Virus record (IMG/VR): IMGVR_UViG_3300005732_000010
Location: 1-35,161 of that record
Source of the DNA: a virus
Strand: one strand, 5' to 3'
DNA length: 35,161 bases
Shown here: positions 3,017 through 22,949 of the stretch, piece by piece
Numbering within the stretch: the stretch's first letter is position 1
Layout: each line of letters starts with the position of its first letter
Notes under the pieces: generated by a model
Database searches by the model: none
The model's input: only the letters and a program-made list of their open reading frames with translations
What the model was told of the DNA's origin: nothing
Made by a program: the position numbers and the translations under genes

Positions 3017-5928
3017 GAATAAATCTAAGAGTATGGGACAGCTCAGACAATCAATTCTACCTTGAGTTGTATTCTAACGACCCTATAAACCTTACTAAGC
3101 AGTTCCAAGATATACTAAGTGTAAACGCTCCTAGCGGTTCTTTTACTCAAACCTTTCGTATTCCAGCAACGGAAAACAATCAAGCGGTATTTGATAACTT
3201 TGAAGACGTTAATTCACAAGGTGATTTTAACCCTAAGAGGAAGTTAAAAGCAGAACTAGAAGCGAATACACTAACGGTGTTAAGTGGGTACGTTCAATTC
3301 GTTGCTTGCTATGTAGAAAAGGGTAAGTTCCCAGAGTACGAGATTATATTCTTTGGTGAAACAGCGAATGTATTCAGAACGATAGGAGATGATAAGTTAA
3401 GCGCGTTGGATTTATCAGACTACGACCACGAGCTAACTTATCCTAACATTCTTTCGTCATGGTCTGGTGGTTTGTTATCGGGTGATATTCGTTACGGGTT
3501 TATGGATAAAGGCAGGAATTGGGCTTTAGACGGGACTGGTAGACCTATCAATAGTGCGTTTCCTATTTATGCAGGAGATTGGACGCCCTACATTCGTGTT
3601 AGTGCTTTAGTAGATACCATCCTAAGTGATTCGGGTTTCACTCGCTCTAGTGCTTTCTTAGATTCCGCTTACGGTCAACTACTGTACGTGCCACTATTCA
3701 ACGGTAAGTTGTTTCCAGTATCAACAGATGAATCAAGCGGTGTAGATTTTAACGTAGGACTATCAACAGATGAGACAGTTACTACAGTCGGATTTCATCA
3801 ATTTGCCAACCTTTCAGATTCGGGCAACTTCTTTGATAACGGTGGAGACTATACAATAGGAGCGGACGACTACTGGACAGCACCTTACTACGGTAACTTT
3901 GGGTTTAGGGCGTGGGTAAGTGGTATTAACAATGATTCAGATACCGACACGATAAGAATACGTGTTACTAAAAACGGTAACGTTGCCTATCTTTCTAATG
4001 AAATAACCGTAGAAGCAGGAGATACGTTTTCTCAATCTGTTACTTTTGGTTTTGATTTGGAGCAAGGTGACGAATTACGCTTTGGTGTAATGACTTACGC
4101 AGATAACTTAGGAGACACGCCAGACATTACTTTTAACTCTACGTCAGCACCCGATGAACTAGAAGGTACAGGGTGGAAAATGGTTAGTAATACTTCTGCT
4201 TTTGAAGGTGTAGACGTAGACATCCAAGCCAACACCCCAGATATCAAGCAGAAAGATTTCTTATCTGGATTACAGAAGATGTTTAACCTTGTGTTTGTTC
4301 CAGACGAAAACGATTCTACAAAGATACTTATAGAGCCATTCCAAGACTACAAAGGAACAGGAGACACTTTAGACTGGACTAACTTAATAGACTACGATAA
4401 AAGCGTAAAGATTGAGCCTACTACATCCATCCAGAAAAGAGAGTACGAATGGACTTATTCTGAAGATAAAGACATAGTAAACCAGTTCTACAAAGACAAT
4501 GCAGACAGAATCTACGGTAGGTTTGAGATTGAAGACGTAGAGAATGATTTCGCTACTGGAAAGGAGACTATTAAAAACCCTTTCAGCGCTTATCCTTGCG
4601 CTTATATCAACGGTTCAAACATTGTAATACACAAAGCGTTTGATAACAACGGACAGATAATAACAGACCCTAAATGTAAAGTAGTGTATTGGGGTGGGTT
4701 GATTGATTCGGTTGATTTAATAGCACGTAATGACGATACAGATTCAAACGTAACACTCACCCAGTACCCTTATTTCGGGCATTACTCAAACCCTGTAGCA
4801 ACTATAGACGGTGAAGACTTGAATTACGGAGGTGAAACCCCACTTCACAACATAGAAGGCAACCCAAATAACAACCTGTATAACAAATACTGGAGAGAAT
4901 ACGTCAATGAGTTGTACTCTGTAGAGGCTAGGAAAATGACAGCGTTCTTTAATTTGGATTTAGTTACCTATTACTCTTTGGGGTTCGATGATTTAATCTT
5001 CATCAAGGATTCATACTGGAGAGTTCTAAAGGTAAACCAGTTCCAGCCTAACCTAGACGAACTAACGCAAGTTGAGTTGATTAAAATACTAGACACTCCT
5101 AGACCTTGTGAGTACATACCCGACACTATTTTGATAGGTGGCCTTGTTCAGTTCTTAGATTCCGCAGGTGCTACTTCTTTTGGCTCTCAGGAATGTTGTG
5201 AGTATTGGGGGTATGTTTGGAATTTAGGGAATTCAAGATGTTACGTAGAACAGTCAGGAGGGTTTATAGAGAGAATAGCCACTTCACCAAACGCATTACA
5301 AGGGTCAAATACACGCAATCTTTCTTTCGGGGTTAACAGTGTAGGCGTCGGTTCTGTTAATGGCTTAACGGTAGGTCAAAATAACTCTACAGGGTTGGAG
5401 AACTTTTACTCCGCTATGGCAGGAAGGAATAATTCAGCAGAGGACGGGATAGGTATTTACCAAGCATTTGGGCAAGATGTAAATGTATGGCAGTCTGGCT
5501 TTCACTTAGGAGGCGCGAAGATATCTATACAAGGAGATAAACAAAGCGGTGTTATTCTATTAGGCTATACGGGTGCTATGAGCGGAACGGTTACCCTATT
5601 CCCTTACTTGGATATACCTAATAACTCAACTTTAGCGATAGACATGAACTACTGTCTAAGTGAGTGGAATGTAGCGACCTCTAGGATAGTCTCAGAACAT
5701 AACTTGAGCGCAAGCACGGTGATAACTAAAGACGGCTCTGGCACTTCGTTTGTCACTCCTGTAATTATTAAGGATGTAGGTACTTCAGGCTCTGGTCACT
5801 ACACGCCAAACATAGACAATACAACTGACGCTACACAACATAGAATTCAGTTAACGAAGTCTGGTGGTGCTTTGTCTAATAACGTGAATATAGTTTGTAG
5901 AATAGAGTACACCATGACTAGGCACTAA
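3013..5928 (+). CDS. Large tail protein, probable tail tip/baseplate with receptor-binding C terminus
   Basis: 971 residues, the largest protein of the phage. The N-terminal part (about 1-130) has a compact beta domain beginning MRINLRVWD and containing the segment FTQTFRIPATENN, reminiscent of tail-tip hub-like proteins of Bacteroidetes phages. The middle is acidic and beta-rich. The C-terminal 220 residues become G/N/S/T-rich with the low-complexity look of fibre or receptor-binding regions. It is the last gene of the forward tail operon before the first reverse-strand segment. Function is inferred from length, composition and neighbours. Confidence 0.55.
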   Translation: MRINLRVWDSSDNQFYLELYSNDPINLTKQFQDILSVNAPSGSFTQTFRIPATENNQAVFDNFEDVNSQGDFNPKRKLKAELEANTLTVLSGYVQFVACYVEKGKFPEYEIIFFGETANVFRTIGDDKLSALDLSDYDHELTYPNILSSWSGGLLSGDIRYGFMDKGRNWALDGTGRPINSAFPIYAGDWTPYIRVSALVDTILSDSGFTRSSAFLDSAYGQLLYVPLFNGKLFPVSTDESSGVDFNVGLSTDETVTTVGFHQFANLSDSGNFFDNGGDYTIGADDYWTAPYYGNFGFRAWVSGINNDSDTDTIRIRVTKNGNVAYLSNEITVEAGDTFSQSVTFGFDLEQGDELRFGVMTYADNLGDTPDITFNSTSAPDELEGTGWKMVSNTSAFEGVDVDIQANTPDIKQKDFLSGLQKMFNLVFVPDENDSTKILIEPFQDYKGTGDTLDWTNLIDYDKSVKIEPTTSIQKREYEWTYSEDKDIVNQFYKDNADRIYGRFEIEDVENDFATGKETIKNPFSAYPCAYINGSNIVIHKAFDNNGQIITDPKCKVVYWGGLIDSVDLIARNDDTDSNVTLTQYPYFGHYSNPVATIDGEDLNYGGETPLHNIEGNPNNNLYNKYWREYVNELYSVEARKMTAFFNLDLVTYYSLGFDDLIFIKDSYWRVLKVNQFQPNLDELTQVELIKILDTPRPCEYIPDTILIGGLVQFLDSAGATSFGSQECCEYWGYVWNLGNSRCYVEQSGGFIERIATSPNALQGSNTRNLSFGVNSVGVGSVNGLTVGQNNSTGLENFYSAMAGRNNSAEDGIGIYQAFGQDVNVWQSGFHLGGAKISIQGDKQSGVILLGYTGAMSGTVTLFPYLDIPNNSTLAIDMNYCLSEWNVATSRIVSEHNLSASTVITKDGSGTSFVTPVIIKDVGTSGSGHYTPNIDNTTDATQHRIQLTKSGGALSNNVNIVCRIEYTMTRH

Positions 5929-18527: not shown

Positions 18528-18570
18528 TTCTAGTAGCGTCTCACAGGCGCATTCATTTTTGTTTTGTTTG

Positions 18571-18596
18571 AAGCCTCCAGCGATGGGGGCTTTTTT
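18571..18596 (+). terminator. Terminator after lysis operon
   Basis: AAGCCTCC (18571-18578) pairs with GGGGGCTT (18585-18592) with one G-T wobble around loop AGCGAT, followed by TTTTTT. Confidence 0.85.
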
Positions 18597-18613
18597 CTTT
18601 CAAGAAAAAGTGT

Positions 18614-18644: not shown

Positions 18645-18845
18645 ATGTTTGAAAAAACACAACCTACAGAGATGCATGGAGAGGTAGAAGATTTCTACAA
18701 TTTCCTTCTCGGTTTAGCGCTAGAGGAACAAAACCAAGCGATAATGTACTTAAGAGAAAAGCTATGTAATAGCAGGGCAGGAAAAATAGAAACTCTACAA
18801 AAAGAAATAGAACACACTAGAGAATCGATAGAAAGACTTACTTAG
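18645..18845 (+). CDS. Small helical protein, own transcription unit
   Basis: 66 residues from ATG at 18645; the longer frame back to 18564 would run through the preceding terminator and promoter. Mostly helical: EVEDFYNFLLGLALEEQNQAI, then a C-terminal coiled coil (KIETLQKEIEHTRESIERL). It has its own promoter-like element and a clear terminator right after the stop, the organisation of a separate early or accessory gene. Function unknown. Confidence 0.65.
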   Translation: MFEKTQPTEMHGEVEDFYNFLLGLALEEQNQAIMYLREKLCNSRAGKIETLQKEIEHTRESIERLT

Positions 18846-18847
18846 AG

Positions 18848-18869
18848 AAAGCCCTACGGGGCTTTTTTC
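18848..18869 (+). terminator. Terminator after 18645 gene
   Basis: AAAGCCC (18848-18854) pairs perfectly with GGGCTTT (18859-18865) around loop TACG, followed by a T-rich run. Confidence 0.9.
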
Positions 18870-18885
18870 TTTTTCTGTTAATAAG

Positions 18886-20018: not shown

Positions 20019-20210
20019 ATGACTGTAGAAGAGGCTAACGAACTAGCACTACAAACAGCAGACGCAATGAAAAAAGCGGCTGATTTACTCAACAAGTTTC
20101 ATGATGAAGCCCCACAAGGATGGGAACAATCAGGTACGCCAGAAACTCAAAAGGCAGGTGTTGCCTTTGTAGAGGCGTTAGATGAACTACAAAACGCTAT
20201 ATTCGAATGA
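20019..20210 (+). CDS. Hypothetical acidic helical protein
   Basis: 63 residues, Ala/Glu/Leu-rich and predicted mainly helical (EEANELALQTADAMKKAADL). Starts 3 bases after the previous stop and overlaps the DnaA-like gene by 4 bases (ATGA). Unknown function. Confidence 0.6.
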   Translation: MTVEEANELALQTADAMKKAADLLNKFHDEAPQGWEQSGTPETQKAGVAFVEALDELQNAIFE

Positions 20211-20539
20211 ACATAAATCCAGTAGCATACGCAGGCATTACCGACTTTTCAGTAATGAGGGACTACGGTTACGATTCTTTAATGGATAAGGCTGTAGACC
20301 ACTTCAAATTAACTAGAGAAGTTTTAGCGGGTAAATGTCGAAAGCGAAACATAGTAGAAGCTAGACAGGTTATCATGTGGGTTCTAATGGAGAAGCTACG
20401 ATTCAGCTCTTGCGAGGTGGGTAGGTTAATGGATAAAAACCACGCGACCGTATTACACGCTAAGAAGAAAGTGAATAATCTAATAGACGTAGAAAAAGGT
20501 TATAAAGAATACGTCTATAGCTTTGTAACTACGCTGTAG
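20207..20539 (+). CDS. Stand-alone DnaA domain IV-like DNA-binding protein
   Basis: 110 residues. Residues 45-90 match the DnaA box-binding domain: KRNIVEARQVIMWVLMEKL forms the first helices, FSSCEVGRLM the helix-turn-helix, and DKNHATVLHAKKKV (76-89) the DnaA signature. There is no AAA+ ATPase or domain I, so it cannot melt an origin alone. It may mark the phage origin, recruit or compete with host DnaA, or act as a regulator. It opens the replication block, and a perfect promoter for the adjacent RNA element overlaps its last codons. Confidence 0.8.
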   Translation: MNINPVAYAGITDFSVMRDYGYDSLMDKAVDHFKLTREVLAGKCRKRNIVEARQVIMWVLMEKLRFSSCEVGRLMDKNHATVLHAKKKVNNLIDVEKGYKEYVYSFVTTL

Positions 20540-20552
20540 TTTATTATATTTG
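20522..20552 (+). promoter_or_regulatory. Perfect Bacteroidetes-type promoter
   Basis: TTTG (20522-20525), a 19-base spacer and TATATTTG (20545-20552). The -33 element lies inside the final codons of the DnaA-like gene. Transcription would begin near 20558, immediately before the structured RNA. Confidence 0.88.
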
Positions 20553-20557
20553 TAGAG

Positions 20558-20639
20558 CATTGTCGGAGGTGCATTAAAGAATTGGTTAACGAACCATTAA
20601 ACCCTTGTAGGTCACTCCGACGACTTGCAGGGGTTTTTT
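20558..20639 (+). ncRNA. Structured leader or small RNA with competing hairpins
   Basis: About 82 bases between a perfect promoter and a T-run. Stem 1: GTCGGAGGTG (20562-20571) with CACTCCGAC (20613-20621), nine pairs with one bulged G. Inner hairpin: TGGTT (20583-20587) with AACCA (20592-20596). Stem 2: CCCTTGTAGG (20602-20611) with CTTGCAGGGG (20624-20633), ten pairs with three wobbles, followed by TTTTTT. Stem 1's 3' arm lies in the loop of stem 2; with only 2 bases joining the two 3' arms the stems probably exclude each other. That is the logic of an attenuator for the 20653 operon, or of a terminated small RNA. No known RNA family recognised. Confidence 0.65.
20602..20639 (+). terminator. 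Terminator arm of the 20558 RNA
   Basis: CCCTTGTAGG (20602-20611) and CTTGCAGGGG (20624-20633) followed by six T (20634-20639), 13 bases before the next ATG. May be conditional, see the RNA entry. Confidence 0.75.
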
Positions 20640-20652
20640 AATACAATAGATT

Positions 20653-21051
20653 ATGAATAAGGAAGAACTTGTAAAACACTTTGACACTAAGACCAGTTGG
20701 AACAGCAAGGAGTTGAAGTGTTTAGTTTCAGCCATGAAAAAGGAAGCGATTTCTGTTTCTCATTTTAAGGAGGGAGATGTTATAAGAAGGTCTGTAATGG
20801 GTCACCCCCAATTGATTTATAAGATAAACGATAGAGGTATCTTTTCATTTATGCTTACTTCAGATGAATCAATGGGTGTAACTTATTTCGAATCGCGGTT
20901 TTCAGACCGTAAATCTTATGTGACGCCTTGCATATTAAAGCTGGAAGCGGACGAACTGACGCTCAATCAATACTGGTATTCTATATCTAAGAAGGAACTG
21001 AAAAGGGTTAAGTCTCAAGTAGTTGAATACGTTAAAAGTGAATTACTATGA
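20653..21051 (+). CDS. Hypothetical protein of replication operon
   Basis: 132 residues, basic, with an N-terminal helical part (NKEELVKHFDTKTSWNSKEL) and a central beta region (EGDVIRRSVMGHPQLIYKI). It is the first gene behind the attenuator-like RNA and overlaps the replication gene by 4 bases (ATGA). No family recognised. Confidence 0.65.
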   Translation: MNKEELVKHFDTKTSWNSKELKCLVSAMKKEAISVSHFKEGDVIRRSVMGHPQLIYKINDRGIFSFMLTSDESMGVTYFESRFSDRKSYVTPCILKLEADELTLNQYWYSISKKELKRVKSQVVEYVKSELL

Positions 21052-21770
21052 ACCATTCATTTAACATAGAAGACGCAAAGACCTACGGGGTAAACTGCGC
21101 TGTTATCTTAGAGAACATTAGATTCTGGGTAGCAAAGAATAAAGCCAACGATAAGCACAACTACGACGGCAAGTATTGGACGTACAATTCAATCAAAGCA
21201 TTTCACGAACTGTTTCCGTATTTAACGGAGAAGCAAATTAGGACTGCCCTAGATAAACTTGTAGAGGCTGGAATAGTCCAAAAAGGTAACTATAATGAGA
21301 ATCCTTACGACCGTACTTCTTGGTATTCTACGGAGGTAAAATCCACTAGGCAAGATAGCAAAAAGGATTTGACTTTAGAAGAAACTCCATTTGACCGTGA
21401 GGGCGAATCATATAAGGTAACAGATATAAACACAGATATAAACCATATTAAAGAAGAGAATTTTCTTCATAAACAACTTGAAAGTAACACAACTACAAAG
21501 AATCTACGCGCGCCCGAATGGATGAACCAAATACCACTAGACGGAGATAACAGTTGGAGATACATCCATAGGCAAGTGAAAGGCAACAATCCAGACGCCT
21601 CGCTTGCAGAGTTAAAAAATAAGTGTACCTTGTTCACGGAACAGGAGAAAGGAACATCAACTACTCACGAATGGACTAGGCACTTTATAAACTGGTGTAA
21701 GTACCAGAAGTTTCAAAAACCGAAAGAAAGTAATTTACCAAGCGCGAGCAAATCAGACTGGAACAGATGA
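21048..21770 (+). CDS. Winged-helix replication protein (replisome organiser-like)
   Basis: 240 residues. Residues about 1-85 resemble the winged-helix N terminus of phage replication initiators of the DnaD/replisome-organiser type: VNCAVILENIRFWVAKNK, then WTYNSIKAFHELFPYLTEKQIRTALDKLVEAG with a recognition helix and YDRTSWYS wing. A polar linker follows, then a helical C-terminal part (WRYIHRQVKGNNPDASLAEL, WTRHFINWCKYQKF) that could contact the helicase. The helicase-like ATPase lies two genes downstream. The assignment is by pattern and context. Confidence 0.65.
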   Translation: MNHSFNIEDAKTYGVNCAVILENIRFWVAKNKANDKHNYDGKYWTYNSIKAFHELFPYLTEKQIRTALDKLVEAGIVQKGNYNENPYDRTSWYSTEVKSTRQDSKKDLTLEETPFDREGESYKVTDINTDINHIKEENFLHKQLESNTTTKNLRAPEWMNQIPLDGDNSWRYIHRQVKGNNPDASLAELKNKCTLFTEQEKGTSTTHEWTRHFINWCKYQKFQKPKESNLPSASKSDWNR

Positions 21771-21937
21771 AGTATACACAAAAAGAATTATTAGAAAAGC
21801 TCAACGAATTAAACTCTAGGTTAGACCTAAAAAAGAGAGAGCGTCTTGCATTATCGAGAGATATAACATCCTTGAAAAAGCAAATTATTTATTGGGAGCA
21901 AATGAGTGAACACCAAACACGCATAGACTTTGATTAA
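21767..21937 (+). CDS. Small coiled-coil protein between initiator and helicase
   Basis: 56 residues, ATG at 21767 overlapping the previous stop (ATGA), TAA at 21935-21937. Leu/Lys/Glu heptads (QKELLEKLNELNSRLDLKKR, ITSLKKQIIYWEQM) indicate a coiled coil along most of its length. Its place between the initiator and helicase-like genes suggests a loader or adaptor, which is inference. The helicase start overlaps it by 8 bases. Confidence 0.6.
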   Translation: MKYTQKELLEKLNELNSRLDLKKRERLALSRDITSLKKQIIYWEQMSEHQTRIDFD

Positions 21938-22949
21938 ATCACTAACAGACCCAGACGTTAAAAGGCGGTTAGACCACATGCACAAATACGGTGTAGATGG
22001 TGGAGACTGGCACGGCTTGAACATAGATTGTAACTGGAGAAAGAAATCAACCCTTTACATTTATGGCCCAGACCACTCAGGTAAGTCAAGACTATTCTTC
22101 TTTACTGCTTTATGTATGGCCGAAAAACACGGATGGAGGTTTTTAATCTACTCACCCGAAACAGGAGACTCAGCAGACATTTACGCCATGATAACCACTA
22201 TCTACTGTGGAACGAATAACTACATAGAGGGTAAATTCGGGATATCAAAAGAAGACCGAAAAGAAGCAGAGAAGTTTATACGTAAGCACTTTAGAACCGT
22301 GGAGTATTTCAGAGGTATAACGATGGACGATATCTACGAAGAGGCGAACAAGCTGAATAACGGATATCCAAACGAAGATGGCACGAAAGAAAAACCTTGG
22401 AAGGTAGACTGTTTATGTGTTGACCCTTTTAACGCTGTGAAGCATGATGTGGATTCAACACCAAGGGATATTTACTTAGGTGACTTTCTTTTAGACTTTG
22501 ACCAAGACGCTACGAAGAACGATAGGTTGAATGTATTGATAGTCCATCCAGCTTCGCAAGAGTTAGAAACTCAGGAGATAGACGGCAAGAAAGTAAGGTT
22601 CTACGGAGTGGCGGACAAAAGGAATATCATGTGGGGTCAAGAGTGGAGCAGAAAAGGTAAAAACTTATGGAGCGTTTGGAGACCTACTAAAAAGGATTTG
22701 AGAGACGAAAACGGGCAACCGTACCCCGATGGATATTTGTTAGTTGACGTTCAAAAGCGTAAACCAGATGCAGTAGGAAACATAGGACAATATCCCGTCT
22801 ATTTTAATTGGATGACTCAAAGGTATTATAATGATTCTAACTTAACAGACTGCCCGTTGAAAGGAATTACAACCGTTGTACAACCAGTTCAAGAAAAAAG
22901 TGTATCTTTAGATTCAAATAAAAACTTCTTAGATGAAGTACCATTTTAA
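21930..22949 (+). CDS. RecA-fold replicative helicase-like ATPase with SSB-like C-tail
   Basis: 339 residues from a TTG start overlapping the upstream stop. Walker A is GPDHSGKS at 46-53, Walker B lies at about 161-166 (CLCVDPF), and VLIVHPA at 202-208 carries the sensor-type His, the arrangement of DnaB/RepA-type RecA-fold helicases. There is no primase or zinc domain. The polar C-terminal tail ends in FLDEVPF, resembling the acidic DDIPF tip of SSB proteins that docks replication and repair partners. Probably the replicative helicase of this polymerase-less phage; a recombination ATPase is the alternative. Confidence 0.75.
   Translation: MIKSLTDPDVKRRLDHMHKYGVDGGDWHGLNIDCNWRKKSTLYIYGPDHSGKSRLFFFTALCMAEKHGWRFLIYSPETGDSADIYAMITTIYCGTNNYIEGKFGISKEDRKEAEKFIRKHFRTVEYFRGITMDDIYEEANKLNNGYPNEDGTKEKPWKVDCLCVDPFNAVKHDVDSTPRDIYLGDFLLDFDQDATKNDRLNVLIVHPASQELETQEIDGKKVRFYGVADKRNIMWGQEWSRKGKNLWSVWRPTKKDLRDENGQPYPDGYLLVDVQKRKPDAVGNIGQYPVYFNWMTQRYYNDSNLTDCPLKGITTVVQPVQEKSVSLDSNKNFLDEVPF

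Follow-up and report, generated by a model that had tools for sequence, protein, structure and literature searches.

Lambda oop is a small terminated RNA that lies beside a replication gene and is antisense to cII. The RNA considered here, from a 35-kb virus record (the window, meaning the whole stretch of DNA analysed), differs from oop in being sense to the replication operon and in its loop-loop pairing. It resembles the antisense attenuation systems of plasmids pIP501 and pT181 and the kissing RNA I and RNA II of ColE1, which also lie before replication initiator genes, rely on loop-loop pairing and have loops that diverge among relatives while remaining complementary (PMC4485353). In plasmid systems, new incompatibility groups arise through changes in the loops (PMC4485353). 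Unlike the plasmid systems, however, a single sense transcript here contains both partner loops, of which one is a terminator loop, and the carrier is a phage. Plasmid-type attenuation also involves an RNA from an opposing promoter, and no paired antisense promoter was found in any of the 11 phage types described below, the interval covered being from the RNA start to 150 nt beyond the T-run; the antisense side held one isolated promoter match, in the relative L031, without a -33 partner.

Kissing interactions also occur in phi29 prohead RNA (pRNA), where two complementary loops kiss and lead to head-to-tail assembly (PMC7357161). The present RNA is likewise a phage RNA with two complementary loops, and its self-complementarity would also permit dimers, but it lies at a replication module rather than at a packaging gene, is much shorter and has its own terminator. 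In the Guanidine-II riboswitch (mini-ykkC), the loops of two small hairpins of the same RNA are believed to kiss (PMC7357161). This intramolecular design is shared, whereas here there is no conserved ACGR loop pair, the loop sequences are free to vary and Rfam gives no match. Searched against Rfam 15, the window had no match at the gathering cut-off, the best sub-threshold match being His_leader with 17.3 bits (cut-off 49), and the records L002, L031, L038, L043 and L044 returned tRNAs only. No prior description of the kissing-loop leader was found in a limited literature search, with subscription journals mostly outside its coverage.

Anatomy of the proposed leader RNA and its neighbourhood

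The element is codirectional with, and directly 5' of, a replication gene or its operon (Table 1). A first-pass annotation had proposed a perfect promoter driving a structured, terminated RNA directly 5' of the replication genes, and both proposals are supported: the promoter is a perfect match to the Bacteroidota type, and the predicted RNA of about 85 nt forms three hairpins (HP1, HP2 and the terminator) with a folding energy of -30.3 kcal/mol, as good as none of 200 dinucleotide shuffles (z -4.5). The 9-pair stem of that annotation exists, though at shifted coordinates (20560-20568, UUGUCGGAG, with 20615-20623, CUCCGACGA), and its terminator with T6 is present, with a stem of 15 pairs instead of 10. 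It had also correctly placed the 3' complementary segment in the terminator loop, while missing hairpin 2 and the fact that the 5' segment is an apical loop too, that of hairpin 1.

Table 1. Features of the proposed leader RNA and adjoining genes in the window
Feature	Position	Strand	Remarks
DnaA C-terminal DNA-binding domain protein	20207-20539	+	PF08299, E 2e-15; upstream neighbour; stand-alone domain
Bacteroidota-type promoter	20522-20552	+	TTTG 20522-20525, 19-nt spacer, TATATTTG 20545-20552; read from sequence
Hairpin 1 (HP1)	20557-20572	+	Stem 20557-20561/20568-20572, loop 20562-20567 (GUCGGA); MFE fold
Kissing element, 5' side (GUCGGAG)	20562-20568	+	7-nt complement to 20615-20621; covaries in relatives
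Hairpin 2 (HP2)	20583-20596	+	UGGUU-AACG-AACCA; MFE fold
Intrinsic terminator	20599-20639	+	15-bp stem 20599-20613/20622-20636, 8-nt loop 20614-20621, T6 20634-20639
Kissing element, 3' side (CUCCGAC)	20615-20621	+	Inside terminator apical loop
First gene downstream, 132 aa	20653-21051	+	No family found; start codon 13 nt past T-run
Replication initiation protein	21048-21770	+	phrog_11233, E 5e-39
Conserved replication-module protein	21930-22949	+	phrog_5482, annotated function unknown

The terminator has the G+C-rich stem and following T-run of an intrinsic terminator, and the last 6 nt of its loop, ACUCCGAC, complement the hairpin 1 loop; an extra pair (20568/20615) is possible beyond these six. 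Six-pair kissing helices are well documented (PMC7357161), and known kissing complexes are similar in size to the pairing predicted here, 6-7 nt between loops of 6-8 nt. The complementarity between the apical loops of two hairpins, together with its covariation, identifies a predicted kissing loop and, since the complementary segment lies in the terminator loop and not in its arms, not a mutually exclusive attenuator.

Between the T-run and the following start codon there are only 2-43 nt in all 11 phage types (the start codon of L002 included), which leaves no space for a promoter of the first gene. Its mRNA must therefore cross the terminator, having started at the leader promoter or at one further upstream. 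Within the replication module, a GPDHSGKS motif in the phrog_5482 protein reads as a P-loop. Short DnaA-domain genes are also annotated in Cellulophaga phi19:3, Polaribacter P12002L, Harreka_1 and the tooticki and mumin phages. Upstream of the replication region, the window contains two more intrinsic terminator-like hairpins (18564-18600 and 18845-18875), for which the scan found no kissing partner.

Covariation and distribution in Bacteroidota phages

Two metagenomic relatives, L002 and L031, carry the same RNA, and all three members fold alike. The DnaA-domain protein of L002 is 81% identical to that of the window, and a neighbouring replication-module protein of L031 is 72% identical to its counterpart. 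A model-based alignment of these three members contains 31 pairs, those of the loop-loop helix among them, that are intact in all three sequences; 10 of these pairs are changed on both sides, a result matched by none of 500 shuffles. The compensatory changes that the first-pass annotation had set as a test in relatives with the same genes are found in the loop-loop helix (four of six pairs), hairpin 2 (two) and the terminator (four); hairpin 1, conserved in L002 and L031, shows a single one-sided change. Because the alignment was fitted to the nested stems and not to the loop-loop helix, the latter constitutes an independent test, and pairing falls to 40-54% when the partner is slid out of register. 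The stem of hairpin 2 is conserved, with compensatory change in L031, and no hairpin 2 is seen in the folds of distant phages. Phages vary in the gene that separates the RNA from the DnaA-domain gene, and the L031 initiator has a different N-terminal domain; the RNA is therefore a unit of its own. A DNA methyltransferase-like gene in L031 (4226-4959) appears as two adjacent ORFs, perhaps frameshifted, and is absent at the corresponding spot of the window.

Exact patterns from the window sequence matched only L002 in the viral collection. A looser terminator pattern also returned L031 and two plain terminators (L032:10776-10812 and L034:4176-4213), which have the same CCCTTGTAG...GCAGGGGTTTT stem without a matching upstream loop, so that the stem sequence alone is no family marker. 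When bacterial genomes were scanned by pattern, the four matches, in Alphaproteobacteria and Paenibacillus, were judged to be chance.

Covariance models reach the close group only, and more distant members were assigned by architecture and position instead of alignment scores. The Flavobacterium phage elemoE gives a weak covariance-model match (17.9 bits, E 0.12) and has a promoter, a hairpin and a terminator with matching loops just 5' of its replication protein. The same layout is found in elemoA, elemoB and elemoD, in Olleya phage Harreka_1, in Flavobacterium phages 11b, tooticki6-1, hemulen9-1 and mumin6-1, in Cellulophaga phi19:3 and phi13:2, and in Polaribacter phage P12002L. The element is present before the replication genes of about ten other Bacteroidota viruses, and the phage types compared number 11. 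The -7 element of the promoter (TAnnTTtG) and the terminator stem with its T-run are conserved in all members, whereas TTTG at -33 is missing in L002, 11b and P12002L. Terminators of the distant group are typically built from an outer stem and a short inner stem with an internal loop between them, the inner stem presenting the loop that pairs; hairpin 1 is weak in the Cellulophaga phages. The loop pairs are GUCGGAG/CUCCGAC (window), GUCACGG/CCGUGAC, GUAGGAGG/CCUCCUAC, GUGGAGG/CCUCCAC, UGAGAGC/GCUCUCA, GUGGUGG/CCACCAC, CGGGCAGG/CCUGCCCG, GUGAGACG/CGUCUCAC, GUGGAACG/CGUUCCAC, CUCUCACAA/UUGUGAGAG and GGUCGUAG/CUACGACC. The RNAs of tooticki6-1 and mumin6-1 are near-identical, and two compensatory changes separate their loops (GTGAGACG/CGTCTCAC to GTGGAACG/CGTTCCAC), while the replication module of mumin6-1 differs, with a helicase and a VapE-like gene. 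The RNA persists before replication proteins of several families (phrog_11233, phrog_19415 and phrog_270-like, besides helicase/VapE in mumin6-1). The distant members have no common sequence except the promoter, and the window group and the distant group may possibly have converged on one design.

The specificity of this architecture was assessed with a descriptor combining the promoter with a hairpin loop and a terminator loop that share a complementarity of 7 nt or more; it was written after the first distant members had been seen, which the specificity tests answer in part. When both strands of 17 phage sequences (423 kb) were scanned, its only matches were the present element and the counterparts, a single one in each phage that has it, and five rounds of shuffled sequence gave one match in total. 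When the 5' parts and terminator loops of ten RNAs were tested in all combinations, own pairs reached 7-9 nt and the 90 swaps at most 6 nt. The element is not universal, as the scan found none in the Riemerella PT33 region, Nonlabens P12024L or Croceibacter P2559S, and these absence calls are soft because the scan missed P12002L, which was spotted by eye and then folded. Applied to 19 other regions lying upstream of matched genes, a loose two-loop descriptor gave 11 matches where 5.5 per round were expected, and these were not counted except for one Bacteroides phage, C3_41T2LP. In this phage, two hairpin pairs (L040:5430-5545 and 5600-5710), complementary over 10 and 9 nt (AGGTGATAGT, TGGTGGCGA), lie upstream of an HTH gene and a replication protein homologue, the second without a T-run, and are possibly a Bacteroides form of the element. 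On the minus strand of L011 (2317-2450), a strong hairpin with loop AGTAGTGTCT is followed by a terminator-like hairpin with AGACACTACT, a 10-nt complement, and no gene comes directly after.

Competing readings and the proposed control of the replication module

Comparative analysis establishes the predicted hairpins, their loop-loop pairing and their constant position before replication genes. We consider it reasonably probable, from the sequence comparisons, that the element is a leader RNA of the replication module that starts 5' of hairpin 1, mostly ends at the terminator and has its ends joined by the loop-loop helix. Transcription would begin at the promoter immediately preceding hairpin 1 and in most cases end at the terminator, yielding the RNA of about 85 nt, whose two ends would be tied by the kissing helix between the hairpin 1 and terminator loops. 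Given that first-gene mRNA must cross the terminator, the leader would set read-through into the module; the RNA would probably govern when the replication genes are made, and its position makes the gating of these genes, already raised in the first-pass annotation, likely. We infer that the kissing pairing sets terminator efficiency. Hairpin 1 could capture the loop of the terminator while this emerges from the polymerase, delaying stem closure and causing read-through, or it could clamp the finished terminator. Since the predicted terminator fold is better than the nested alternative by 7.6-11.7 kcal/mol, read-through would depend on kinetics or on a factor. It counts against the leader reading that the later replication genes could be supplied by a promoter within the first gene downstream.

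Released RNA copies could also titrate the loops of new transcripts and thereby report genome copy number. This one-transcript sensor, in which released RNA with both loops would compete in trans and tune termination before the replication genes, is suggested by the matched loop rewriting that recalls plasmid incompatibility groups, and we regard it as fairly unlikely. If it were true, rapid matched rewriting would give each phage its own specificity, much as in those groups, and loop specificity could exclude or spare co-infecting phages.

A stand-alone trans-acting sRNA is the alternative to which we give some weight, although we think it doubtful. The kissing helix would then only close the RNA and protect both ends, the target would be a protein or an RNA of host or phage, and the location at the head of the replication module would be incidental. 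Consistent with this, the RNA has its own promoter and terminator and a compact fold with both ends tied, and it is kept in mumin6-1, where the downstream replication genes are replaced. However, the distant members share promoter sequence only, which argues against a constant base-pairing target, and the RNA always heads the replication module, immediately 5' of a gene.

Plasmids and lambda offer precedents for origin-linked transcripts. A role as part of the replication origin, with the transcript priming or activating the origin and the loops serving dimerisation or primer ending, would agree with the initiator and DnaA-domain genes that adjoin the RNA in several phages, but it is improbable: DnaA-box-like sites are not enriched (33 seen against 40 expected), no iterons were found and there is no skew change at the element within the window. 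The role in origin firing suggested at first pass finds no support here. Still less credible, and very improbable in our judgement, is the view favoured there of a classical attenuator or riboswitch, in which the 5' segment and the terminator would be mutually exclusive and switched by a ligand or by translation. Prefix folding does yield a transient nested long-range stem of 9-12 bp at lengths 67-78, before the terminator forms, yet this is the weaker alternative mentioned above. The complementary segment is confined to the apical loop in all 11 phage types, with a terminator arm included or sequestered in none; no stable antiterminator is predicted to pair with the 5' arm of the terminator, and there is no conserved ligand-like core. 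The idea of an ordinary intergenic terminator whose complementarity arose by chance, for which the CCCTTG..CAGGGG stems of L032 and L034 might speak, is contradicted by the covariation, the cross-combination test and the scan specificity, the first of which already refutes it, and has almost no probability left.

To our knowledge, little is known of how replication genes are controlled in phages of the abundant phylum Bacteroidota. The leader RNA appears to represent an undescribed RNA family common to distantly related phages of this phylum, its distant members being recognised by architecture and position, and the range covers podovirus-like elemo phages, siphoviruses, Aggregaviridae and Pachyviridae, with several members belonging to cultured phage-host pairs. 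In these phages the terminator loop, besides the stem, is under a pairing constraint, and the RNA is retained while the adjoining replication proteins are exchanged.
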